From assembly GCA_950295325.1 (NCBI GenBank), contig OX485809.1, positions 3,846,001 through 3,910,000 on the forward strand: a DNA stretch of 64,000 nucleotides. The letters are read 5' to 3'. Below, one piece after another: positions 1-57,808 of the stretch; the stretch's first letter is position 1, and every line of letters begins with the position of its first letter. A program made the translations under genes and the position numbers. A model generated the notes under the pieces. It was not told the DNA's origin. It did not search any database and saw only the letters and a program-made list of their open reading frames with translations. The stretch is from Polytrichum commune. Taxonomy: Eukaryota; Streptophyta; Polytrichopsida; Polytrichales; Polytrichaceae.

Positions 1-259
1 AGCAAGATTCTTCATTTGGATCCGAATCTTCGATATTCAACATTGCAATTGCAACATTCTCGGCATATGATGGGAGACGCGGGCTACGGCTTGGACTTCG
101 TAGGAATTATCTATGTGCCCAAAACGGGAGACATGTCCTCTTTCCAATCGTATTCCTGAAATCAAATCGATGAAACATGTAAGTAATGTGAAGAAATAAA
201 AATGAACCAATGAATTGAATGAAACGAATGAATTGAATAAAAATTTATTGTATCAAAAC
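1..259. other. 3' flank of the methyltransferase-like gene
   Basis: No independent gene is recognised here. On the minus strand an AATAAA-type signal lies at about 249-244, just past the stop of the methyltransferase-like gene. A strong splice donor (GA followed by GTAAGT) overlaps that stop at 264-262, and a TTTCAG acceptor lies near 162. An alternative last exon of about 50 bp, ending at a TAA near 108, is therefore possible. The first ~168 bases are also open on the plus strand, but nothing in that translation is recognisable. Confidence 0.35.
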
Positions 260-3200
260 TTACTCACACTCAAATTCAAGCATATCCTCATCCGAGAGGT
301 CATCATCTTCTTTTGTGAGATCTTGTATATTCTCCTTAGATGACCCCTCTTTCAAAACCTTTTCCAAAAGCGGTTTCAATATGTGCTCAAACATGTCATT
401 ATCACCCTCAAATGCAAGAAGATGTCTGCCACATGCGCGTGTTGCTAGGATAGAAGCTCCAGTGGAACATGTCAAATCAACAACGCGTCCATTCGATGGG
501 TGTAAACAATTCAATAAGATCTTGAAAAAAACGCGGCGATTTTTAATATGGCCCCCTCCAAGGTGTTCCCGATTTTTGAAGAAGCATGTTTTTTTCATCC
601 ACAAAATTGAAAAGCAAGTTTTTGCTTTTCAATTCAGTGCCAAAAAAAGTGGAGTTTGGTTGTCTCGTGGATTTTGTGGTAGTAAAATCCCTTACCAAGA
701 CATGAGCCATAAATGCCGGAGTCTACAAAAAAATATAAATTGTGTTAAAACTATATACAATGCAAATAACACCAAAATAATTAAATATAAACAATTGTGA
801 TGTGTTATACTTACGGTGTAGGTTGGAGACTCTGGATCCTTGAACACCATGTACGAATTGAGGCAAATAAAAGTCCTAAGAACTTTCATGTTGCCGTTGT
901 GTAAGGTTGAATTCAAAACCTTCTTGGTTTGCATATCGATAGCAGAAAATACTATGAGGACGCCATCATCAGACAAGATGAACTTGCATAAGGACATTGT
1001 TGCAACCATCCAGTTCTTGTCATATTTATTCCAAAGAGGAATTTCAGCAGGTCTATTGGAGAGGTTGAAGTCAAGACCGTCCGGAAATTGCAGAAAAACC
1101 AAGTCAACGGCAAATGGAGTCGGACTTCCCATGACATGAAATTCGCGATTGTCTTTGAACTGAAATACCACAACATATCACAATATAAGACACAAAATAA
1201 AATCCAAATGAAAGTAAGAACATTACAGAAAATACAAAATGAAGATTACTTACATTTTCAAGAAATGCCCGCCATTAGATCCTCTCAGGAGGGCCTACTT
1301 CAACCCCTTCATACTTGTTCTTGACAGCAGTAGATCGAGCAAAAGAGAGCGTGAGAAAATTCTTCAGTATGAATAACTCTTTTTTCAAAACATTCGTTGG
1401 CGCACGATGAATAACGTCATAAGTGCTCGAGTAATGAAATTCCAATATATCGCACCCGGATTTTGAACTTTCGCCTCCAAGTGTATTCTTATCCAAATCA
1501 TTGGAAAGAACAAGCAATTCTTCATGTTGTGAAATTTCCGATTGACCTTGTATTTTGGTTTCAGGAACATATTTTCTCTTACGACGTTTTGTCTCTTTTG
1601 ATTCTGGCTCTCTAAGTTTAAGCTGCACAATTTGTGCTTGCAAAATTGCAGTATCACGAGGATCTACGTTTTTGGCATCATTTATCTGACGGATTGTCTT
1701 CTCACTTGACGGACATGCATCCTTAGGACAATCAAGATACCAACCACAATCCTCATAGTGTGGGAGCGACCAATCCAAACAAATTTCAGTAGTGAACATG
1801 CATGAGTCTTCAGCACCAGTGTCACGCCAATTTGGAAAAAAACGAGGTTCCCCTATAACGCATTTGTGCGGAATCAAAATATATCGGAAATACATACACA
1901 CAAAAATATTATGAGCCAAATATTGAATGAAAAGTAAAATGTAATGGAAAAATATCAAGAAATAGTAAAGAGTAAGTTGTACCTGTATAGAACACGCTTC
2001 ATAGCAAGATCAATATTCGGTTGCTCATCCCAAACGTTGTGTTTTTTTACTTTTCCGCTTTTGAATTCACGATAGAATATTGAATTGAAAGCCGCAAATT
2101 TCCAGGTTTGGATATATTCGGAGAGAGTAGGCACATCTGCAGGCAATTGAAGAGGAGATGAAAGAATACTTTGAAGCTCTTCAATAGTTTTTTTTTCTAA
2201 CTGTGCCCAATATGTAGACTTTGATAACCAATCATCAAGTGCAGAATCAGAGAGGGGTGATTTCGGGAAATGCAATGCATCTTTGTCAAATCTATTGCCA
2301 TTCCAAAGCTTGAGCCATCCGACTTTGACATCTGGATCCACATTACTAACAGCAACACGATGAAGTTTCTCTTGTAACATTTCAGGCACCGAAAATGAAC
2401 CCCAATGGTATTTAACTTCTTTAAGAAAAGTAGGGGTGAGGTTGATGTCAGCAATCGCTAGTTGTTTTGTACAACTAGAAGACAACATTGCACGTTTTTT
2501 TTGTTGACAGCTGCGGACATTGCTTTAGAAACTCCTTCTGAAGTTCGTTCAAGAGGATGGGTTTCATTGTAAAGGTTGAGAGCAATATCGCTAGCCTCGG
2601 CAAGTTCTTGCTGAAAAATCAAACAAAATCCAAAATTAATAAGTACATATAGATGTGATGTAAATGAAAGATAAATAAACATTAAAAACATAGTAGAAAA
2701 TGCTAGAAAAACTTACACTGTACATGTAATCAAGAAAAATTGGCCGCGTCAAAGAATACCAAGTTTCGACGGACTTCTCCTCACATCGCTTATAACTTCT
2801 AGGATCCAGTTGTTTTTTAAAAGAAGTCAAAGGCATGGTGCCAATATTTTGCATCCGATACAAAGTATGCACCAAATTGGTAGAAACGTGAGAATTTTTT
2901 GTTGACCTGAAAAAATATTGAATTCATGGATTTAAGATGATATAATTCAAATAACAAAATACAAACCAGAAATAAATGAAAATAAAGAAGTAAGAACATT
3001 ACTTGTTGATGTCGTGCATAGTAGTCAACAAACTTGGAATGTCATCAAGCTCGGGCGTTAAAATGATGGAATCCACAAAGACATGACGCTCGTAATCTTC
3101 GGTATGCAAGCGGTCAATATAACTTTTCCAAGCAAGAAATCTGTGATTACCATCCCATATGAAGGACATCTTGTTCTTGTATGATGTAAATGAAGGATCA

Positions 3201-3727
3201 GCATCTAATTCAGTTTCAAACACCGCATTAGCTTGAGCCCAATTTGGGCTCCAAGATACACGAACCTCGTCATTCACAAATTGAAAATTTCCCTTAGAGT
3301 CGGTAGTCGATAGATAAAACACACAGTCACCATCACGATAACCATTGAAAAAGTCAGCCTCCAATTTAGTGATGTCGCCTTTCAAAGCAGGACGCACAAT
3401 AGGCGTCGGAACCATGCGACATAAGGGTACACGCAAACGAGATTTCGGTCCAGCACGGATTGAGGAAATTGTTGAATTAGAATTAACCTTTCGCTTGTCC
3501 GTAAGCTCCCATACTTTCTGTTGATAGGTTTTATTATCACCATCGTTGTCTTCATCGGAGTCAAAATCATTGAGGGGTTCTTGTAATTTTTTCTTTTTTT
3601 TATTCTTATTGTGAAGGTTTGATGAAATGTCTTGATCATGATGAACTTGTTTGGATGGACGATCTTGAGTTGAGGTTTTTGTGGAATCATCATCCGTGGA
3701 AAGAGGAACTGATTTCTCCACATCCAT
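260..3727 (-). pseudogene. ParB-like / beta-class DNA methyltransferase gene, decayed
   Basis: Exons read on the minus strand: 3727-3003, 2906-2717, 2610-1983, 1852-1254, 1159-815 and 722-260, most with clean GT-AG borders and matching phases. Exon 1 has an acidic/basic low-complexity head with a lysine run (NKNKKKKK, about residues 41-48). It then has WDGNHRFLAW at residues 191-200, which resembles the GxxR box of ParB/sulfiredoxin-fold domains. Exon 5 carries VDLVFLQFPDG, in the place of the DPPY motif IV. The last exon carries FFKILL (motif X) followed by VVDLTCSTGAS and GRHLLAFEGD (AdoMet motif I). The order IV, then X and I, is that of beta-class N4-C/N6-A methyltransferases. Breaks: an A8 frameshift (2495-2502), an in-frame TAA at 1277-1275, a frameshift near the C5 run at 552-556, and an unresolved phase at the exon 3/4 junction. 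The motif IV catalytic residues are also atypical. The gene is probably inactive; intact paralogues may exist. Sequencing error in the homopolymers is the alternative for two of the breaks. Confidence 0.6.
3003..3727 (-). other. Exon 1 of the methyltransferase-like gene: ParB-like part
   Basis: This exon encodes 241 codons from ATG 3727 and ends at a GT donor (3002-3001) in phase 2. It joins in frame to an exon starting at 2906 after a TTTTTTCAG acceptor. The joined text continues MHDINK into STKNSHVSTNLVHTLYRMQ, which reads as one continuous protein. The conserved-looking core runs from about residue 100 (PLCRMVPTPIVRPALKGDI) to the DGNHR motif. I have an unverified impression that similar uncharacterised proteins occur in seedless plants and streptophyte algae. 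Confidence 0.55.
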
Positions 3728-3740
3728 TATTTGGTCTTAA

Positions 3741-4330
3741 ATACAAACAATGACATAAATCTTAGAAATCATCTTGATGTAGTATCTTCTGAAGGTATTT
3801 GATTACATAAGAGAACATGCTTAAAGGTGTAGAGAAAAACAGTACCTGAGCCAACAACAATACCAACACCAACAGTAGAATAACAGCACAAAACATGATA
3901 GCACCACGTCCAACCAAACAAACAGGAACACCAGCTCCAACAGTAGGAACAGGAACAACAACACCAATAGCAGGAACACCAACACCAACAGCAGCAGCAA
4001 CAACAACAACACCAACACTAGGAGCAGCAACAACACCAACAGTAGCCCCAACACCAATAGCAACAGCACCAACACCAGCAGCAACAACAACAACAACAAC
4101 ACCAGCAACAACAACACCACCAATAGCAGTAGCAGCACAAACAACAACAATAAGAACAATATATTAGTATCTGAACTAATACCACCTAAACCAATAGGAA
4201 CAACACTAGAAGTAGTGGCAACACATGAGCAAAAACAAGAGAAGAAGAGCAGCAATAGCAGCAATAGCAGCAACCACCACAACAACAAAGAACCACCAAC
4301 AAAAGGAAGAATGACCAAAAAAAAAATTTA
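3741..4330. repeat. CAA/CAC triplet-repeat tract
   Basis: From about 3846 to 4318 the plus strand is dominated by CAA, CAC, CCA and GCA triplets, which open long low-complexity frames on both strands: Thr/Pro/Ala on plus and Leu/Val on minus. The composition explains these frames, so I do not call them genes. On the minus strand the tract ends in CTCAG followed by GTACTG near 3846, a possible splice donor. Part of the tract could therefore be 5' untranslated exon of the methyltransferase-like gene. Confidence 0.7.
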
Positions 4331-4395
4331 AGGTGTGACTTTGGTAGTTTAAGTACTGTGTGATTAGGGTAGCGGCTTACCCTAAACAACTAGGG

Positions 4396-4622
4396 TAGAC
4401 CCTGTGCGTTAACGCACAGGGTCTATGCCCCTAACTTTGAGGCCTACCAAAGTTGCGGGTATAGACCCTGTGCGTTAACGCACAGGGTCTACGCGCCTAG
4501 CTTTGAGGCCTACCAAAGTTGCAGGCGTAGACCCTGTGCGCTAACGCACAGGGTCTATGCACCTGACTACATATGTATGAAAGTTGCTAGCGTAGACCCT
4601 GTGCGTTAACGCGCAGGGTCTA
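4396..4622. repeat. Palindrome array, block A (4 copies, 66-bp period)
   Basis: Four palindromes with core TGCGTTAACGCA are centred at 4410/4411, 4476/4477, 4542/4543 and 4607/4608, a period of 66, 66 and 65 bp. The first is a perfect inverted repeat of at least 30 bp, with arms extending outward through CCCTG and TAGAC. Copy 3 has GCTAAC for GTTAAC; copy 4 has one arm base changed. The spacers are themselves related (ACTTTGAGGCCTACCAAAGT, itself palindromic). No coding potential is seen. Confidence 0.95.
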
Positions 4623-5078
4623 TGCCAAAGGTTTGAAAAAGTTTTTTTTTAATTTTTTAATTTTTTAATTTTTTGAAATTGGTAGATTTGCCAAAACTTG
4701 TAAAATCTAGAAATAATACTAATCGTGTCCGAACAAAATAATAAAAATATTGTAAATTATCTAAATCTCCGTGGCTACAACTTTCTCTAATATTTTTTTT
4801 TGTGTTTGATATCGTTTTCTTTACTCATTCTTCTATCTATTTCATTGTTTTTGGCCACCTCGTAGATTTTGGATTTTTGGGCACAAAAAAATATTTCACT
4901 ATTTTTGGTCATTTTTAAGCTCTTGTCACATACTACATGAATATCTCAGTACGCATATTACTCATTTTTTACATTCTAACCCCATTTTGAACAAATTTTT
5001 AGTTTCAACACTTTACATGACGTTTTCAATTTATACAATAGCTATTTGTTTTACTTTTAGACATTCTAAGTCGCTGGT
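4623..5078. other. AT-rich spacer between palindrome blocks
   Basis: This is strongly AT-rich, with T-runs and AATTTTTTAA-type repeats near 4645-4675. I find no open frame, palindromic site or recognisable repeat. It separates the two palindrome blocks. Confidence 0.6.
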
Positions 5079-6040
5079 ACATACCCTGTGCGTTAACGCA
5101 CACGGTATTCAATCCTAAATTTTAACCTTCTAAGTCGTTGCCTAATACCCTGTGCGTTAACGCACAGGGTTTTCCCTCCTAACTTTTAGGGTATCTAAGT
5201 TGCTCCCTAATACCCTGTGCATTAACGCACAGGGTATTCCATCCTAACTTTTTACCTTCTAAGTCGCTCCTTAATACCTTGTGCGTTAACGCACAGGGTT
5301 TTCCCTCCTAACTTTTAGGGTATCTAAGTCGCTCCCTAATACCCTGTGCATTAACGCACAAGGTATTTCATCCTAAATTTTAACTTTCTAAGTCGCTCGT
5401 ACATACCCTGTGCATTAACGCACAGGGTTTTCCCTCCTAACTTTTAAGGTATCTAAGTCGCTCCCTAATACCCTGTGCGTTAACGCACAGGGTATTAGGG
5501 AGCGACTTACACAGCGTAAACAACCCCGTGCGTTAACGCAAGGGTATTGGGGAGCGACTTAGTAACCCTAAACAATCCTGTGCGTAAACGCACAGAGTAT
5601 TAGGGAGCGACTTAGATACCCTAAGAGTTGCGAGGGAAAACCCTGTGCGTTAACGCACAGGGTATTAGGTTGCGACTCAGAAACCCTAAACCACCCTGTG
5701 CGTTAACGCATAGGGTATTAGGGAGCAACTTACACAGCGTAAACAACCCCGTGCATTAACGCAGAGGGTATTAGGGAGCGACTTAGATACCCTAAACAAC
5801 CCTGTGCGTTAACGCACAAGGTATTAGGGAGCGACTTAGAAAGCGTAAACAACCCTGTGCGTTAACGCATAGGGTATTAGGAAGCAACTTACACAACGTA
5901 AACAACCCCGTGCGTTAACGCAGAGGGTATTAGGGAGCGACTTAGATACCCTAAACAACCCTGTGCGTTAACGCACAAGGTATTAGGGAGCAACTTAGAA
6001 AGCGTAAACAACCCTGTGCGTTAACGCACAGGGCTTTCCC
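5079..6040. repeat. Palindrome array, block B (17 copies, 64.5- then 53-bp period)
   Basis: Seventeen sites share the 20-base palindrome CCTGTGCGTTAACGCACAGG or close variants. Centres are near 5094, 5158, 5223, 5287, 5352, 5416, 5481, 5534, 5586, 5651, 5704, 5757, 5810, 5863, 5916, 5969 and 6022. Spacing alternates 64/65 up to 5481. After that it is 53 bp, with one 65-bp step at 5586-5651. The 12-bp core is the most conserved part; the commonest change is TGCG to TGCA, as expected from decay of a methylated CpG. In the first half the spacers alternate between two types (129-bp higher-order unit). In the second half three spacer types repeat (159-bp unit), and the spacer orientation is inverted. 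No coding potential is seen. Confidence 0.95.
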
Positions 6041-6160
6041 TCCTATCTTTTAAGCTTTCTAACTCGTTGTCAGAAATGCTTTTCGGGTGGGCCACCGATA
6101 TTCCAAGGATTCACTACTCTCATACCATCGACAAATGTATAAAAGTGTAAGAAAAAATGG

Positions 6161-6355
6161 TATAGACATCCACCTATGGATGCGAGTTGTCTAAAGAAAC
6201 TGATGTTTCGGTCTGCTCCAACTTGGGTTCGAATCTAGTTGGTTGCAGACTGGTGCTATCCCCTAATGAGCTAGTGGTTAGGCAGGAAATACAGTAGATT
6301 GGATACATAGAAGGCTTTCCTACGCAAGTGTGCATAGATCCTTCTAAATAAAGTT
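6161..6355 (+). mobile_element. SINE-like dispersed repeat, copy 1
   Basis: A segment of about 190 bp starts near GACATCCACCTATGGATGCG and has a related, inverted copy at about 10930-11125. It contains GGGTTCGAATC at 6225-6235, which matches the Pol III B box of tRNA-derived SINEs. A weaker A-box-like stretch (TGGATGCGAGTTG) lies about 45 bp upstream, and the 3' end is T/A-rich. The alternative is that the two inverted copies are the terminal inverted repeats of the transposon between them. I found no clear target-site duplication to settle it. Confidence 0.5.
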
Positions 6356-6431
6356 TTTGTTAAATTGACTACTTTGAACAAACTAAAGCATATGCCCAAC
6401 AATATCGTTGATTTACGTTGAGCTGACTTAC

Positions 6432-6701
6432 CTTTTTGTTTGTTGTCTCCTTTGAACTCGTCTTCATTTCCGACTCCGATATACGATCGTCTGCATGTGC
6501 ACCTTCATCACCCTCCATCATATCAAAATCCAGTGCTTTCACAGTTTCTACTATCGTATTCAACATGTTTCTTTTTCCTTCCTTGTTTGCATTCCTCTTT
6601 CCTACACTCAGTCCGAACCTCTTTTTCTCAGAAGTAAAATACAAAGCTTTCCTACGCCTTCTCTTTTGCCTCACGGGTGTTCTCTCTACATCCTCCACCA
6701 T
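6432..6701 (-). CDS. Orphan minus-strand exon with basic NLS-like motif
   Basis: The frame opens with ATG at 6701 and runs 90 codons to AACAAAAAG followed by GTAAGTCAG, a near-consensus splice donor (GT at 6431-6430, phase 0). The translation begins MVEDVERTPVRQKRRRRKAL, so a nuclear localisation signal is likely. The rest is charged and has no domain I recognise. A TATAATAAAA stretch lies upstream on this strand near 6866-6855. The exon is divergent from the transposase gene at 7116 and shares the ~415-bp gap with it. It could be a 5' exon of the methyltransferase-like gene, but it does not join exon 1 (3727) in frame at the only obvious acceptor. It could also be part of a second transposon gene. 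No partner exon was found. Confidence 0.4.
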
Positions 6702-7115
6702 CGTTGGTGTCTATAATGTGTCCTCCATCAATCCACTATCATTTATTCTTCCAATGTGTCTATCCCACATGAATCCGGCGTATATTACGATCATTCATGT
6801 TGCAATTGGCGTCCAATGAACGAAATATTTCAACACGTCTTTCATTTTATTTCTATTTTTATTATAGGGTCCAAAAGTTTCTGACACCCTAGCCTCGTTG
6901 TTTTGTGTGTATCTTGCTTGTAAATATTCTCTAACTATTATTATGATATGTTTACTTCCATATTATTAGATGCTATGGTATCACACGCTTTCATCACCAT
7001 CCATTATTGTATCACGCGTTTTCAATTTCATTCACTTCATCACACACCTCTATATAAAAACAACATTCACCCAAATTTTTTGTGATGTCTTGTTCAATTC
7101 ATCTTTCCATTTTCC
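6702..7115. promoter_or_regulatory. Divergent intergenic region, with TATA box at 7051-7058
   Basis: The gap separates the minus-strand exon (ATG 6701) from the plus-strand transposase (ATG 7116). TATATAAA at 7051-7058 is 58 bp upstream of the transposase ATG, leaving room for a start site about 30 bp downstream and a short leader. The ATG context (TTTCCATGGC) is good for plants. The layout suggests a bidirectional promoter; this is inferred from position only. Confidence 0.5.
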
Positions 7116-10100
7116 ATGGCTACCATTAGAGCTCATGGATCTTTTGTTCCCTTCATTTTGCCACTTCAAGATGATGGTCATGTGAGTGTTTCAGAAGATT
7201 TACTTAGTTTGAGATTCAACCTCCAGATAGGCTCCATGTATTTAGAGGAGGAGATGTACTCTGCAGATAGAGAGGTGTATGAAACGATTTTGGTTCAAAA
7301 AAATAGAACAAATGTTGGTTTTATGTGGATCTTAGGACCTGGTTCATATAGGATGATAGGTCTTTCTGAGTCTCAGATGCAAGCTTCTACTGTCATATTG
7401 ACAAACGAATCTGGAACATCCACAATTCAAATTCCCTCTACCGCACATGTTAAGGTAGAACCCCTTGATGATAGTGTGTTTGTGCTATTGGATTCAGAAG
7501 ATGACATTTGTGCATCTGTTGATTTTTCAAACACATCGCCGTTTCCATTTAAAGGTGTTCATTTTATTCCTTCGCAACTTCCTATACATGTATCCAAATC
7601 TCCTTGCGGTCTTATGTACAAGAGGGTGGTTCCCCTAATTTCACCCTCTCAACGTCCTCCACTACACCCTTCACCTTCATCTACAGGGTTGACTATAGTT
7701 GATGCCTTGAAGCTGACAAAGTCAAGAAAAAAATCAAAGTCAGATCTCGCATCCATTGATTTTGATAGTATAGATGTTCGCAATGTCAAGTACTTACCAT
7801 CTTCTTTTAATGGTGATGTTTTGTTTCTCTTACCCCCTGTGACACTTAAAGTTCCAAGTACGTATGGCCGCTTAATGGACGACATGGACAAGATGTGCGA
7901 CGGTCACCCTTGGTGCACCACCAAAACCACCAATATCCAAAATGATTTTGGATTGTCCTTCCGGCGCTCTACTTGTGTTGGTCATCTCCAATGTCCTAAT
8001 GACTACTGTGATTACATGAATCGCAATGGGGGCCTCCGGAACAACACTGAATGGGCCGGTTCAACTCCTCTCCCATTTGCTGTGGGTAATGTTCCTCCCA
8101 CTAGGTCCATTGTCGAGTGTAAGGTATGTCGTTTCACACCTGTGTACATTGCTTTATGTCATGCTCGAATCATATACATCCACTCCACATCTGTTGGAAT
8201 GTCCAGGGCTTGCATTCATATTGGTGTATATGATCACCCTGTGGCCAATGGCACATGCCGTGAGTCATTGAACATGACATACCAGTGCGTTGCAAATGAA
8301 GTATTGAAAACACCCACAGCCAAAAATTCAGCCATAGTTATGGCAGCAAGCAAACAATTATTAGCCGATTATCTTTTTAAATCTCCCGCAAATGTCGAAG
8401 GCCATCACTTGGTTGGTTCATCCCTAGAGGTCGTCATGGACAAATTCAGCACTCTTGCGTCTCCGAATTGTCGTAACTTTGTATCTGGATCAAAGCGTTT
8501 TTTGCGTAGTGAAATGGGAACTATGGATAGTATTATGGTACTTAAAGACCACTATGCTTTCAAGTTTGTCCATGGTAGTAGCTTTCCAGGGCAGTCAAAG
8601 GACAAAGTGTTTGTTTTCAAGATGTTTGTAGACCTTCCAGGTAGTGGTGTGGAGCTTGTGAAGAGGATGCAAGTCGGTGGGGACATGGAGAATTCATGAA
8701 TTATGTTTGACCATGTCAAACGTTTGAAGGACTGGACGACCATGGCTTGCCATGTGTACGACAGTCGATACTGTAAAGTATTGACTATTGCGTGTTGTGA
8801 CATGCAATCTGAAGATGGTGCAGCACAAATTCTTTTTCGGGAAAATTTGAATGCTGTCATGGCAGAAAATAGTGTACCAAACGTAAATTTCAAAGGGTTC
8901 ATGGCTGATAGTGCTCAAGCTAATTAGAATGCGGTGAGGGCAATTTACGGGGATGGTGATCCAAGTCTACCCATGGTTGCACTTGAGCGTACATGTCTTC
9001 TCCATTGGTCTGCAAGCTTGGATAAGGTGACCCAAAAGTATATCAAACCATCTTTGCAGTTTCAACACAAACAAATATGCAAGGATTACAAAGACGCGAA
9101 AACAATGGACGATGCTGAGACTAAGTACCATGTGATTCGTTCTTGGTGGTTGTCATCTGGAGCTGCCTCGGAAGAAGACATCCTTGGCCTTTCAGAGTGG
9201 TTGGGATTTTGGCACTTTCGTTATAGACAATGGGGTGGTCATATGCTACTTGTAAGTACATATCAAACTTCATTATTCACTGTCATTCAATATCTTGCCA
9301 CTGATATATAATATATCTTATGTTTTTCTTATCCTTGTATTTGTGTGTTGTTCATAGGATATGACAATAGAAGAGCGTGCGGAAATGCCAACATGCAACC
9401 TTGCAGAGACTGTACACAACAAATGGCTCCAACAGTCCGGCAACAAGATGACTTGTTTATATGAAGCTACAGTGGACGACATGATCCGTGTCTTCATGCA
9501 AATTGCAAATTACCGGACATGGTTGAAAGGGGGGCCTGATGGTAAAGGTCCTGATTCGGCATCCTTGAAACTCAAAGCGGCTGCCAAGTGTGGAGATCTA
9601 AAAATGTTGGCCGATGCCATGAAGTCTTATCCAGGGGCAGAAGACGTCAACACTAGAGATTGTGCATTGGAAGGGTCAGAGCTCTTTGGTTCCACCAAAC
9701 GTAAACTCAACCTACCACCGAGTGCTGATTGTGACTCTCATCGACCCGACAAAGTGAACTATTCCATTCCTCGTCCCAACACCCGAGCAACTCGTCAACG
9801 CATAGAGGAATCGTTGAGTTCTGCAATTCATGGTGTGGCTCATACTACATCCGTGTTAGAGACAGATTGTCTTCCTTCCAAGTGGCACATTGCAAGATTA
9901 CCACCCAACTCAGCCAAACGATGTTGGGCACTGCAGGCCATCACAGGGACTATGTGCAATGCCAAATTCGGGACTGGGAAACATGGCACACCTGCTCCAA
10001 CATATAAAGGGCTCAGGAAGGAATTTCGCTCTCCCAACAATGTGGAGTATGAATTTTGGTTTGCCCTGACGACATTAAACGTTGTGTGAGTGGCAGTAAG

Positions 10101-10724
10101 AAGAAATATGTGTTGGACTGGCCTATAGTATCCAACACGTGGCCGGTGAAGATAGGTACCAATCTATTGCGAGAGGAGGTTTTGGCACTTGAAGATGCTG
10201 AATTTCAACTACAGCAGAGGGAGGCATTGTCCCCTTGTCGTAGGCTTTCAACAATCGCAACTCTCCCCATCCCTCGCTCGCATTTTTCTATGCCACCAAA
10301 CCCGGACGCCCACCCTACATTCAGGTTTGGGAAGACAGTGCGTCGTAATCCAACAGCACCGCTAGCGGATCACAAAAACAAATGGGAGAGCGCCGGACTC
10401 ATGGAGGGTTACTATGTGGTTGGGGTCACTGCCATTCCATATCCGGGCTTTGGAGTGATAATCAACATTGTCTCCAAGCAGGATATCACCTACCATGTCA
10501 CAATTGGCGACATCCCGCATTGCACATGCCCGGATTTCACGAAAATGTCCTCTCATGCATTGGGAAAGAAAGGAAAATGGGTGTATTGTAAACATCTTTA
10601 TTATGTGTTTAGATTTTTGTGCAAGGTGGATTACGAGAGTGACAAGTTCATTCATGCACCTACATATATCTATAACGAGGTCATGCGATTACTTGAACTT
10701 GCTGGTATTGTAGAGTGTGAGTAG
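7116..10724 (+). pseudogene. Mutator-like (MULE) transposase, decayed
   Basis: Two exons, 7116-9251 and 9358-10724, join at a GTAAGT donor and a CATAG acceptor in phase 0, giving about 1,165 codons. The middle has the MULE pattern: FMADSAQAN (second catalytic Asp), ERTCLLHW (Cys-x2-His) and, after the intron, NLAETVHNKWL (candidate catalytic Glu). The C-terminal region has a SWIM zinc finger: CTC at 10521-10529 and CKH at 10587-10595. Two in-frame stops interrupt it: TGA 8697-8699 (codon 528) and TAG 8925-8927 (codon 604, where ANxNAV suggests a lost Trp). A frameshift of one base lies near 10060. The frame continues cleanly across each stop, so this is a recently decayed gene. MULE transposases cut and paste DNA through terminal repeats; this copy should be inactive without intact help. 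Confidence 0.85.
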
Positions 10725-10929
10725 TATTGCAAATGGTCTATTAAGTACCATATATTTGAATGTCAAAATATGACATGTTTTGGTTTGGATTTTTATAATA
10801 AAAATCAGCAATGGACTGGAAGTATTTCAAATGATTCAGTAACTTCATTTCTATTTAGACTACGACCCAACCGTGAGCGGTTTGATTGATTGACATGGAT
10901 AAATAATAACAAGTTTCTAAAAATAAAAA
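10725..10929 (+). other. 3' flank of the transposase, duplicated downstream
   Basis: After the stop the sequence includes TATAATAAAAATCA near 10795 and a segment around 10860-10905. Translated, that segment reads LRPNRERFDxLTW, similar to the sequence preceding the tail copy at 11190. There is no separate gene. Confidence 0.5.
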
Positions 10930-11125
10930 ATAATTGAGAAGATTTTACACACATCCGCGTAGTAACGTCTTCTTGGTATCCGCCTATAGATTATTCCTGC
11001 TTTATCACTAGCTCAATTTGGGATAGCACCAGTCAATGTAACCAACCGGATTCAAACCCGGGTTGATACAGACCTAATACCAGTCTCTTACACAACTCGC
11101 ATCCACAGGCGGATGTCTCAAAACC
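10930..11125 (-). mobile_element. SINE-like dispersed repeat, copy 2 (inverted)
   Basis: The reverse complement matches 6161-6355 over its length with many substitutions, by eye roughly three-quarters identical. It includes GGATGCGAGTTGTGTAAG, a B-box-like GGGTTTGAATCC (plus-strand 11048-11059) and ACTGGTGCTATCCC. It lies between the transposase 3' end and a duplicated transposase tail. That position fits an insertion, or alternatively one of two long terminal inverted repeats. Confidence 0.5.
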
Positions 11126-11164
11126 TAGTAGTTACCTACATATTGACTATTTCTAATATCTAAT

Positions 11165-11410
11165 TTCCTTTCATTTGTAGATTCTGGGCCTTAATTCAAC
11201 CCGTGAGCAGTTTGAGTGGCTCACAATTATGGCACCTACATGTACGTATAATGAGGTTATGCACCTACTTGAGCTTGATGGTGTTGTGGAATGTGAGTAG
11301 TTGTGCAAATGTTGGTTGTAACTACATGTATAAGGATGTCAATAAATGACATGTATTGGTTTGGATTATTATAATAAAAATCAACAATAAATTGAAAGTG
11401 TTTTAAACGA
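11165..11410 (+). pseudogene. Duplicated C-terminal fragment of the MULE transposase
   Basis: After a CATTTGTAG acceptor-like site the frame reads REQFEWLTIMAPTCTYNEV and on to LLELDGVVECE and a stop at about 11300. It parallels APTYIYNEVMRLLELAGIVE at the end of the transposase (10655-10724). The sequence after the stop (TATAATAAAAATCAACAAT) is also shared with the flank at 10795, so the copy includes 3' untranslated DNA. It is a partial duplication or remnant of a second, related element. Confidence 0.7.
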
Positions 11411-14400
11411 TCCATGGAAATAGGGCCCTTTCACTTGTGCTTCATTTAAAATATTGGCAATTTACAATTGAAAATATGCAATTAATTTGTCAAAATTTTG
11501 GTTGTGTACCCTAAACCCGTGTGTCTTTACTAAATTTGGAATCATTGATCATATGCTACTGCTCATTGCTCATGTGTTACTGCTCACCGCTCACCGCTCA
11601 CTGCTCATCGCTCATAAGATAGCTTCCCTCGTCCAATTGGAAGAAAACTTGAGAGTGACAAGTGCTACATTTTGCACGGGTAGGTCACTCTAAGGCATTT
11701 TTGTGCACCACGTACGGCTGGGGTTTTTTTTTTGTTTTAGGGTTACTTACCTTCAAGGGCTGAATTAAAGCCTCCCTATAATTACTTAAATTTAAAAAAT
11801 GACCCATTTGTTTGCACCCTTCCATTACTTATATTGTCCAAGTCACTGTAATTTTTTGTACTCTATATTCCTTTTAAGTAATAAAAGCTAATCTACTTCC
11901 TAACGCATTGACGAGTGTTGAGGGAAACCATGGAAACAAAGAAGGGTGCAAACAATAATATCATTGCAAACAAAGTTATAAAGAAAACACATAGGAAACC
12001 ATAGCAAACATACTAAACATACCTTCTAGGATCCTTATCTTCAGCCCCTATATTAATTTTATAGAAAAATAATGGCCCACATTTTATGTCCATCTAACTT
12101 ACTTATAATGGGATTGTCTACATTTAATGGCCCCTTCATTATTTGGAATTCCTTTATAATTTTTATTTCAAATGATTTTAATCCTCTCTATATTATGCCG
12201 CACGTTGTTTTTAAAATGCACTAAGTGACCTACCCGTGACATTTTGAAATGAGGAAGGAAGCTTATCTTTACTAAAGTTGTAAAGGGTATACTCCACCAC
12301 AAAGTGTTCTTCATTTTCAACTATTGTATTGTAAGAGCAAAAATGGCATAATTCATTTTCTTTAGGAATTGGGGTAGTCAACTACCAACCATCTTCAATG
12401 ACAAGTTTATGATTCAAGATGTGATAAGCAACATGCTTTTGCAGTGGGATGGTGTCAATGGTTGCTTCAAGTACAATTCACATTCATAGTTGAGAAAGTC
12501 CTCAAGATGAAAATAACCTAATTTCTTCCTTGCAAGGTGGAAAGAGTTCCACTCTTTAGCAAGAAATGTCTCCTTGAGAGCATCATATTTGTGATGTCAA
12601 ATGGTTTATATTCAATGATTCATGAGATCAAAAAACTCAATAATGTTTTATTGAAGATACAATAAAGAGGAATGATTAATCAAGATCCATTGTTCATTGT
12701 TGTATGAAGATTAACCAATGACGATATTAAAAATATGATTACAATCATCAAAATAATGAAAGGAGATCTTGTAGATTAACTTTCAAATTATCTTCAACAA
12801 TGTAAAGAAATTTTTGAATGAATCTACAGGGGAGATATGGGAATATTTGGACTTTATAATTTTGGGAAATTTTGGAATGTATTCCAAATTCTTTGAAGCA
12901 CTTGGCTTTGAAACAACATCAAGATGAAGGAAATAATCAACACACAAATGAAGTCATTCCAATCACCCAAACTAACAAAAGTGACAAGAATAGATGTGAC
13001 TTTCTTTCTTGTAGCTTGGCCACATGATCACCTTTTAAAGCCGGATGAAGTTAAGATTGAGGTAGACGTGTCTTAATCCAACACATCCAATAACGGAGTT
13101 TTCCTATTTCAAGGTTGAGTTGTGGTCGCCATTATTAAGTGGATGCATGGTCCACCAACCACACAAGTTTCTCATTCGGTTTGGTTGGGGTGAATGAGAA
13201 CTCAAAACCATGATATGTGGCTCAACATGGGAGTGGTAGGGAGCATATTTCAAGCTACAAAATGTTTTCTCCATCCCTCACATTACAAGTCTTAGAAGAA
13301 TTGCATTCCCTGATGTGTTGGGTAATTTGTCCAACATACACATTGGGACCACATGCAAAGACGAGATGTAATCGTCGTATATGAACATACCTCTCATCCA
13401 TCCAACATAAGTTGTTCACCCCCAAACGCAAGTCCTTGGAGGGCTTGTAAGGTGAGGCCCCCATCCATCTTCTACATCATTTGAGGGGTTGTTTACATCA
13501 TGGACCATGAAGTTGTCCCATGTCCTAGGACCTTTTTCTATAGTCACACTTCATGGTCACACTTTCATGACAAATTCACGAAAAGAATGAAATTTAAATC
13601 CTTTGTACCCCTTAATGGGTGTACATAAAATGAACGTGGATCAAGAAGAATGACCATGCACCAAAAAATGGTCGTGGTAAATTATATATATATGTCTTAA
13701 GAAGGCCGGTTTTGAATTTATATTTCATTTGTTACCTTTGTTGAATTGAAAATGGTTTTGTGCTATCTCCTCCATGCACATTTGCAAGTACTTTGGAAAC
13801 ATATGCGTAGAGAATCTCCAACACGAAGGCCTTAAATCCTATAAAAGCGCCCACTTAAGACACATCTACCTTACTCTAGACTGGACAACAAGACCCAAAT
13901 GTAAGGAACCGAGTAACTCAATAAGTATTTATTAATTAGTACATGTCGGCTGGAACAATGGATGGATGATAATTGCCAACCGGGCAGAAGTAGATGAGTA
14001 TTATGCCTACCTGGCAACGCTGAGGTGGACGTTCGACGTATCTCCAAGTCATGCAACATGGACCTGGGTAAAAGAGTGTTTCCGTACCTCAACTCGCCGG
14101 CAGCATAGTTTTTGTGGCGTACCTACCACAGCAAAACACTCACTGTGTCCCCAACCAGTTAATGATTCTTTCACATTTCCCTTAACAGCTTCATAGAATC
14201 AGACACCTCCATAGCCTACCAAGTTACACATAACTTAACCTGGTTGAGCTTGAGAAATGACTGGCCGAAGTTGAGGACTACACGGAATTTACCGATCGTT
14301 TTGGAAGAATTTAGAAATTATGCCTCAAATTGATAAAGGAAAACCGAAAGATGTCAACTTGTAACTAGTTGGACTTGGAAACACGAGGATCTCGAACGAC

Positions 14401-52418: not shown

Positions 52419-53224
52419 CAGGGTTGTCTATTGTGTCGTGACGGAGGCTAATCTCAGCATAATGTTGTGCCATCATGACACGTATCCGTCACGACATTAT
52501 GCCGGATGTTGTCTTTATCCTAACGGACTTGAATTTTTACCGAATTCTGTGTGTAATTACATTACCTCATTTCGGACACGTAGGATGTAAGATGTCCACG
52601 TGTGATGACATGTTAGCAAAGTAGAGGTAAAGTGGGGAAAAAATTACTAGCCCCTGTCCGCCCCCATTCCCACCCCCCCCCCCCCCGTCCGCACCCCTCC
52701 CCCACCGTCCGCCCCCATTCCCACCCCCCCACCGTCCGCCCCCCTCCCTCCCCGTCCGTCACTTTTTCTTTTTTCTTTTTCTTTTCTTTCCTTCCCGTCC
52801 TCCCCCACCGTCCGCCCCCCCCCCCCCCCCCTCCCTCCCCGCCCGTCCCTTTTTTGTTCCCCCCTCCCCCACTGTCCGCACCCGCTCCCCCCCCCCCCCC
52901 CCCCCGTCTGCCCCCATCCGCCCCACATTCGTCCCCCGTCCGCCCCACACACTCCTTAGTCATATTTTACTACTTTGATTTTAACATAATGATAACAGAA
53001 TGGCAAAATGGTTTACTTGCCGCTAGGCATATCCACGTCCACGTCGGCCTTTTCTGCCACATAGGACGCCACCTTGGCAAGAAGGTAAGTATTTTACCCA
53101 CCCTACTAGCTGCCCCCTAGGTTGACCCTACGTGGACCCTATTGTGTCGTGACGGAGGGGTCCGTCACGACACGACACGTCATCACGGCACGACACCGTC
53201 ATGACGTCGGGATAGACAACCCTG
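52419..53224. mobile_element. Non-autonomous hAT-type element (806 bp) with 8-bp target duplication
   Basis: The terminal inverted repeats CAGGGTTGTCTAT (52419-52431) and ATAGACAACCCTG (53212-53224) are exact over 13 bp. The same octamer AGCTTCAT flanks both ends (52411-52418 and 53225-53232). CAGGG ends and an 8-bp target duplication are hAT hallmarks. Subterminal regions are full of CGTGACGG/CCGTCACG units, like the transposase-binding repeats of hAT elements. No transposase is encoded; the long frames inside are by-products of the C-rich tract. Confidence 0.9.
52656..52945. repeat. C-rich tract (G-rich on the minus strand) inside the hAT element
   Basis: About 290 bp of near-pure pyrimidine, built from CCGTCCGCCCCC-like units with C runs up to 19-20 and a CTTTTT-rich middle part (52763-52790). 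Many runs of three or more G on the minus strand could form G-quadruplexes. Frames of 60-160 codons here are low-complexity artefacts. Confidence 0.9.
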
Positions 53225-57072: not shown

Positions 57073-57808
57073 ACTGACTGAAGATTTCTTTTTCTTTTGC
57101 TTATTATACTGATAGGCTAGGGAGTTTATCTGAGGCATACACGTGTCCCAATGAACGGGGAGAACCGACCGCTAGTTGCAGATGAACTCGTTGAGTTTGA
57201 GAAATGACCGGTCGGCGTTCATCAAGACTTCAGGAAAAAATTGAGGTGGAAGAGGCCACTGACTGAAGATTTCTTTTTCTTTTGCTTATTATACTGATAT
57301 GCTAGGAGTTTATCTTGGGCATACACGTGTCCCGATGACCAGGAGAACCGACCGCTAGTTGCAGATGAACTCGGTGAGTTTGAGAAATGACCGGTGGGCG
57401 TTCATCAAGACTTCAGGAAGAAATTGAGGTCGAGGAGGCCACTGCCTGAAGATTTCTTTTTCTTTTGCTTATTATACCGATATGCTAGGAGTTTACCTTG
57501 GGCATACACGTGTCTTGATGAACGGGGACAACCGACTGCTAGTTGCAGATGAACTCGGTGAGTTTGAGAAATGACCGGTGGGCGTTCATCAAGACTTCAG
57601 GAAAAAATTGAGGTTGAAGAGGCTACTGACTGAAGATTTCTTTTTCTTTTGCTTATTATACTGATATGCTAGGAGTTTACCTTGGGCATACACGTGTCCC
57701 AATGAACGGGGAGAACTGACTGCTAGGTGCAGATGAACTCGGTGTGTTTGAGAAATGACTGGTGGGCGTTCATCAAGACTTCAGGAAAAAATTGAGGTCG
57801 AAGAGGCA
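57073..57808. repeat. 184-bp tandem repeat, four copies
   Basis: Units start with CTGACTGAAGATTTCTTTTT near 57074, 57258, 57441 and 57625. Each contains GGGCATACACGTGTCCC-like sequence and CAGATGAACTCGGTGAGTTT, the latter being a piece of MITE family 5. The copies differ by scattered single bases. Confidence 0.9.

Follow-up and report, generated by a model that had tools for sequence, protein, structure and literature searches.

The TnpA protein of Spm/En transposons is element-encoded, binds repeated CpG-containing subterminal motifs and counters methylation. The VANDAL elements of Arabidopsis, as described in passages of PMC5735166, combine a conserved transposase with a fast-evolving second gene and with tandem motif arrays that differ between relatives. 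Passages of the same paper and of PMC10398659 present the VANC proteins of these elements as anti-silencing proteins that bind their own motifs and cause loss of DNA methylation; the VANC motif is arrayed in one orientation, and the VANC protein has domains other than those described below (PMC5735166). ParB folds fused to N6_N4 methyltransferases are frequent in phages according to passages of a survey (PMC12704722), in whose main text no word begins with 'transpos' or 'plant'. Among the titles and abstract openings listed in term searches, none describes an element like the one reported here, which by itself does not prove absence from the literature.

The window analysed here is a 64-kb stretch of the Polytrichum commune genome (a 408-Mb assembly of 64 contigs), in which the genes at this locus have introns. 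Near its left edge lies an array of palindromes that occupies the middle, non-coding part of a DNA transposon, between two divergent genes, transposase-like on the right and ending in a methyltransferase-like domain on the left. The features are, in window coordinates:

1..11630, no strand: DNA transposon of 11,925 bp, with ends common to four copies and junctions checked
260..3727, minus strand: left gene of six exons, interrupted in the window copy; exon model from the uninterrupted copy D
260..1159, minus strand: methyltransferase-like domain, exons 5 and 6 of the left gene (about 815-1159 and 260-722), motif IV being QFPD
3002-3727, minus strand: N-terminal exon (exon 1) of the left gene, matched at least 152 times in the genome
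4396..4625, no strand: array block 1, four palindromes in 66-bp units (65-66-bp spacing)
5081..6040, no strand: array block 2, 17 palindromes, first in units of ~64/65 bp and then, with orientation reversed, in units of ~53 bp
7116..10724, plus strand: transposase-like gene of two exons (about 7116-9278 and 9361-10724), with at least 82 genome matches
11570..11630, no strand: right end of the transposon, an inverted repeat of the left end with subterminal GAGCGGT-like repeats
11631..11639, no strand: target-site duplication GTCCAATTG, the other copy of which lies directly left of the element, beyond the window

The transposon starts 295 bases left of the window (C7:3845706), and its sharp common ends were read from an alignment of four copies at unrelated loci. 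All four end in short inverted repeats (in the window copy: left, GGGGAGTGCTATCTTATGAGCGGTGAGC; right, inverted, GGGAAGCTATCTTATGAGCGATGAGC), a GAGCGGT-like motif is repeated just inside the ends, and target duplications flank each copy, three of them exact (9, 10 and 10 bp; GTCCAATTG, GTCCTTTTAG and ATCCTACAAG) and one of 10 bp with one mismatch. The element, 11.9 kb long and present in high copy number, is a DNA transposon; its inverted ends and its target duplications of 9-10 bp, the latter within the range of about 8-11 bp of Mutator-like elements (MULEs), indicate a Mutator-like element, though a search at E up to 5 gave no match of its transposase to a transposase model of Pfam. The C-terminus of the transposase gave a weak, SWIM-like match below the cut-off, and the protein has invariant D...D and C-x2-H residues, which may be a likeness to Mutator-like transposases. 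An AlphaFold2 model of the transposase core (5 sequences) reached a pLDDT of 39. Besides the missing Pfam match, the element differs from MULEs in its additional methyltransferase-like gene and palindrome array, and it differs from VANDALs in having inverted ends; to our knowledge, VANDALs lack long inverted ends. The window copy looks inactive, since in-frame stops that end at 8699 and 8927 break its transposase frame and since, by comparison with copy D, its left gene is interrupted as well. It is common for copies to have probe exons free of stops.

The sequence TGCGTTAACGCA, with up to two mismatches, has exactly 21 matches in the window, all within 4405-6028, compared with a mean of 1.39 and a maximum of 4 in 100 dinucleotide shuffles. 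The conserved unit is the 22-bp palindrome CCCTGTGCGTTAACGCACAGGG (21 copies at up to five mismatches, 4400-6033). Block 2 consists of two head-to-head sub-arrays, one of ~64/65-bp and one of ~53-bp units, and contains inverted arms of about 106 bp. The 21 near-identical palindromes that an earlier note had reported at 4396-6040 in two blocks are thereby recovered as 4 and 17 sites, as is the minus-strand gene that it had placed beside them at 260-3727.

The arrays are tied to copies of the same element throughout the genome. The copy counts for left-gene exon 1 (probe P0002) and the right gene (probe P0001) are lower bounds, as the lists score 150, 82 and 150 candidates, and absence among the matches listed is little proof. 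Each of 20 further stretches 5' of left-gene copies, picked from the better left-gene matches (19 of them reach a listed transposase match), contained 7-25 sites at up to five mismatches, and the reversed pattern gave none in the same stretches. Sites in the whole genome number 1,412 at up to three mismatches (control, 0). One non-palindromic site variant, listed completely, gave 49 sites in 37 clusters, 35 of which are found at most 5 kb from a left-gene match on its 5' side, a zone that makes up 0.17% of the genome; 136 left-gene matches were used for this count, and 14 listed rows at 41-43% identity were left out. The remaining two clusters are element DNA as well, one (C3:52978351) adjoining a listed transposase match and the other (C2:11621800) being a remnant of the same intergenic region. 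Among the first 55 exact sites on contig C1, 11 of 12 clusters are placed in the same way, and the twelfth also belongs to the element, sharing 91% identity with copy D along 2.1 kb. The suggestion that arrays accompany homologues of the 260-3727 gene across the genome is thus confirmed. The interpretation given with it is supported in part: the genome-wide link holds and a dimer-type site fits the changes at the sites, but the transposon that forms the setting had gone unrecognised.

We read 16 loci of more distant relatives (L028-L033, L034-L042 and L053), and at 13 of them a palindrome recurs 5' of the left gene:

L028, L029: CATCTCGGATCCGAGATG
L030: GGTTTCGGTCCCGAACCC
L031: TGTGTCGGGGCCGAGACA
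L032, L033, L035, L036, L037: GTCTCGGGACCGAGAC and close variants
L034: GGCCTCGGATCCGAGGCA plus GTTTCGGGGCCGAAAC
L042: TGTTTCGGGCCCGAAACA
L053: TGTGCGCCAGCGCACA and variants
L041: an imperfect palindrome in a 94-bp x 6.4 repeat

At L038, L039 and L040, no recurrent palindrome was found within the 5 kb read, and in ten control pieces of 5 kb each, taken from the window beyond the element, no near-palindrome occurred at more than two places per piece. A search for the window motif with up to six mismatches gave no site in L028-L033. In L030, L032 and L033, the tandem arrangement of whole units makes other, AT-rich inverted repeats recur in equal or higher numbers, and the GC-rich repeat was chosen at these loci because it shares the core. 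In the symmetrised consensus of each of 13 motif groups, CG stands at positions -4/-3 and +3/+4 of the dyad, giving CG-N4-CG, and both CGs occur in 133 of 154 sites, a proportion to be read with the facts that the collecting seeds contain CG and that the groups are not independent. Sites of the L028 type occur 63 times at up to one mismatch, and their surroundings were read in L028 and L029. An ordinary or chance satellite is refuted by the genome-wide placement together with the palindromes of the relatives. Two further repeats were observed at these loci: a second inverted repeat of L028 (7515-7689, about TTGGCGGCACCGCCAA, 66-bp unit), which lies on the transposase side and also has CG-N4-CG spacing, and a 169-bp x 28.5 tandem array of L039 (134-5017), which fills the 5' region of the left gene and has no recurrent palindrome.

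On balance, we consider it somewhat more likely than not that dimers of the left protein occupy the palindromes and, against silencing by the host, shield or activate the two divergent promoters. Comparison of families suggests that the array seems to track the left gene. In the L043/L053 family (adjoining stretches of C1), the left end is alike in 64 of 70 bases and the N-terminus of the transposase is 78% identical to that of copy C over 156 residues, while the left gene is only 22-36% identical to that of copy D and the palindrome keeps the half-site TGTGCG with a centre that differs from the window type. The transposase cores of the L028 and L032 families (L046 and L047) are 88% and 58% identical to that of copy C; left exon 1 of these families is 43% and 41% identical to that of the window. 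Such comparisons bear on the rival that the transposase, or a splice form of it, binds the array for autoregulation or transposition. The position of the array 5' of the transposase gene would suit this rival, as would the fact that transposase and array types partly go together: window-type clusters adjoin transposases of 85-100% identity (21 of 37 clusters), and L053-type clusters adjoin transposases of 80-82% identity, a listed one being present at three of ten clusters, with two further clusters of the ten belonging to L043/L044 loci. However, the element ends bear another repeat, the GAGCGGT-like motif, which is kept in the L043 family despite the changed palindrome centre, and in L028 and L032, with transposase cores 88% and 58% identical, the palindromes differ from that of the window. 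Transposase-binding repeats, which the earlier note had named as one option, are less likely, because ends and transposase remain alike in L043/L053 while palindrome centre and left gene differ. A transposase homologue was seen on the far side of the array at the loci checked (L028, L032, L033 and L053). In L053, other open frames, one of them protein-kinase-like by eye, stand between array and left gene and are possibly captured host DNA or a nested insertion.

The array could also be a minisatellite without function that grew within the element and is carried along by it. Copies differ freely in the number and spacing of their units, and the L039 array shows that tandem repeats without recurrent palindromes occur in this position, but the 22 palindrome positions are more conserved than most flanking positions and in other families unrelated units have palindromes of CG-N4-CG spacing at their centre. 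We give this explanation a small chance. The observed/expected ratio of CpG falls from 1.04 in the array to 0.66 in the remaining part of the element within the window and to 0.48 in the window outside the element. The sites have an excess of C-to-T and G-to-A changes, which is no proof of methylation because tandem units are not independent.

The left protein of copy D has 979 residues encoded by six exons. Its exons 5 and 6 matched the N6_N4_Mtase model (PF01555) with E=1.5e-4 and 22.3 bits, below the 26.7-bit cut-off, which the relatives L043 and L044 exceed (32.4 and 35.3 bits), and they matched the phage DNA methyltransferase family phrog_67 with E 9.2e-9. Compared with phages by tblastn, the methyltransferase region had weak matches, most of them to annotated methylases, with 26-35% identity among the matches listed; the same region had no PDB match at E up to 10, and P0002 had no tblastn match in plasmids. 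Scanned against Pfam at E up to 5, the spliced left protein matched nothing besides PF01555, DUF1985 and DUF287 being absent. The canonical catalytic motif of N6/N4 methyltransferases is DPPY, or more generally [DNS]PP[YFW]. All eight copies read have a degraded form of the corresponding tetrapeptide (QFPD in copies A-D, DLPE in L028 and L029, DIPY in L043, DIPD in L044), and methyltransferase catalysis has, to judge by this motif, probably been lost. If the left gene instead encoded an active methyltransferase that methylates the palindromes, as a self-mark against the host or against rival elements, its N6/N4-methyltransferase-like domain and the symmetric sites with conserved CpG would be readily explained. 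A site of 16-22 bp is, however, long for an N6/N4 methyltransferase, and the degraded tetrapeptides make a methylation target, which had been among the options first proposed, very improbable.

The N-terminal exon contains an invariant GNHR-x2-A motif that resembles ParB box II. Comparisons of the left protein with Pfam, PDB and PHROG and between profiles gave no support for a ParB-like domain. A whole-genome search with ParB_N (PF02195) matched only the small contigs C12 and C23 and nothing in these elements, and the profile of the N-terminal exon had only two unrelated PDB matches (E 0.08 and 0.24). An hhalign comparison of the N-terminal domain with four phage or bacterial ParB-methyltransferase proteins was negative, both alignments being shallow and one of the four proteins (L050) having matched the query over its N-terminal part only. 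AlphaFold2 modelled the N-terminal exon (7 sequences) with a pLDDT of 38. Of the two domains previously assigned to the left gene, the methyltransferase-like one is upheld by PF01555, phrog_67 and the relatives, and the ParB-like one has no profile support beyond the short motif. A parS-like site, at which a ParB-like clamp would load or which would serve partition, would accord with the GNHR-x2-A motif and with palindromes of parS-like length, but an integrated transposon needs no partition, and with ParB_N matching nothing in the elements and the phage ParB-methyltransferases giving a negative hhalign result, this further proposal of the note is unsupported and highly unlikely. The small contigs C10, C12 and C23 carry bacterial or phage-type genes and are probably contamination in the assembly; on C12 (L045, 28800-30500), a single ORF matches both ParB_N and N6_N4_Mtase and is 75% identical to an IMG/VR contig.

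Among 302 sites from 21 stretches, 441 arm pairs carried a change; in 417 of them it was confined to one side, and 11 of the 24 two-sided pairs were complementary double changes. Because changes are one-armed, the palindromes are better read as binding sites than as hairpins, and the symmetric site for a dimeric DNA-binding protein that had been postulated fits this pattern. Hairpins of array transcripts that feed or decoy small-RNA silencing, for which the perfect 11-bp arms and the ~106-bp inverted arms of block 2 could be adduced, are set aside as scarcely credible, since compensatory change is lacking.

In the preferred reading, namely dimeric binding of the left protein for the benefit of the divergent promoters, each palindrome would be bound by a dimer of the left-gene protein, and the many dense sites would confine this protein to copies of its own family, where it would act on the two promoters. 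Its most likely action would be sequence-specific anti-silencing of the VANC type, in which CpG methylation by the host and silent chromatin are blocked or reversed, with a methyltransferase fold that reads DNA instead of modifying it. Protein and sites would diverge together, so that each family would possess a private switch, and the family-private palindromes perhaps serve escape from host silencing. Points against this reading are that L038-L040 have no recurrent palindrome, that the palindrome of L041 is imperfect, that open frames separate array and left gene in L053 and that part of the conservation is due to shared ancestry, since tandem duplication by itself maintains likeness among copies.

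As in VANDALs, the transposase is conserved, the second gene evolves rapidly, and dense tandem motifs lie in non-coding DNA and differ between related families. In contrast to VANDALs, the motif is a palindrome between divergent genes and the second gene is methyltransferase-derived, whereas that of VANC has DUF1985/DUF287. The left protein may well be VANC-like in its working, an analogy that we find somewhat more convincing than not, but it is not itself a VANC, as domain and site symmetry differ. The proposed binding of repeated CpG-containing motifs by an element protein against methylation would also resemble Spm/En TnpA, the sites of which are located at the ends and not in palindromic arrays between divergent genes. 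With the phage ParB-N6_N4 fusions, the left protein shares a C-terminal PF01555-type domain and a GNHR-x2-A motif N-terminal to it; it differs from them in its unconfirmed ParB fold, degraded catalytic motif, large central region, introns and eukaryotic transposon carrier. We put forward more tentatively, as a scenario that is possible but that we would not call probable, that in a transposon lineage independent of VANDALs a phage-type (ParB-)methyltransferase became a reader of CG-N4-CG palindromes that has no catalytic activity, is specific to its family and keeps its own copies free of host CpG silencing. Co-diversification of protein and palindrome would then have produced many orthogonal protein-site pairs in one genome. 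If true, transposons evolved sequence-specific anti-silencing more than once and by means of an unrelated protein, and a single genome provides about ten natural protein-palindrome pairs, in which the co-evolution of element-encoded regulators and their targets would be directly testable and which could supply new addressable DNA binders for epigenome editing. Even without anti-silencing, this is a high-copy transposon with a methyltransferase-derived gene beside a palindrome array that varies between families.

Outside the element, the window contains a 184-bp x 4 tandem repeat (57073-57807, 93% matches) and a C-rich repeat tract (52656-52949). Between copies of the element, the array region is much less alike than the genes, and two array types occur among copies with coding flanks that are 92-98% identical (window versus L009-L027), one with 66/64/53-bp spacing in the window, L008 and L011 and one with 64/65/44/115-bp spacing in the others.
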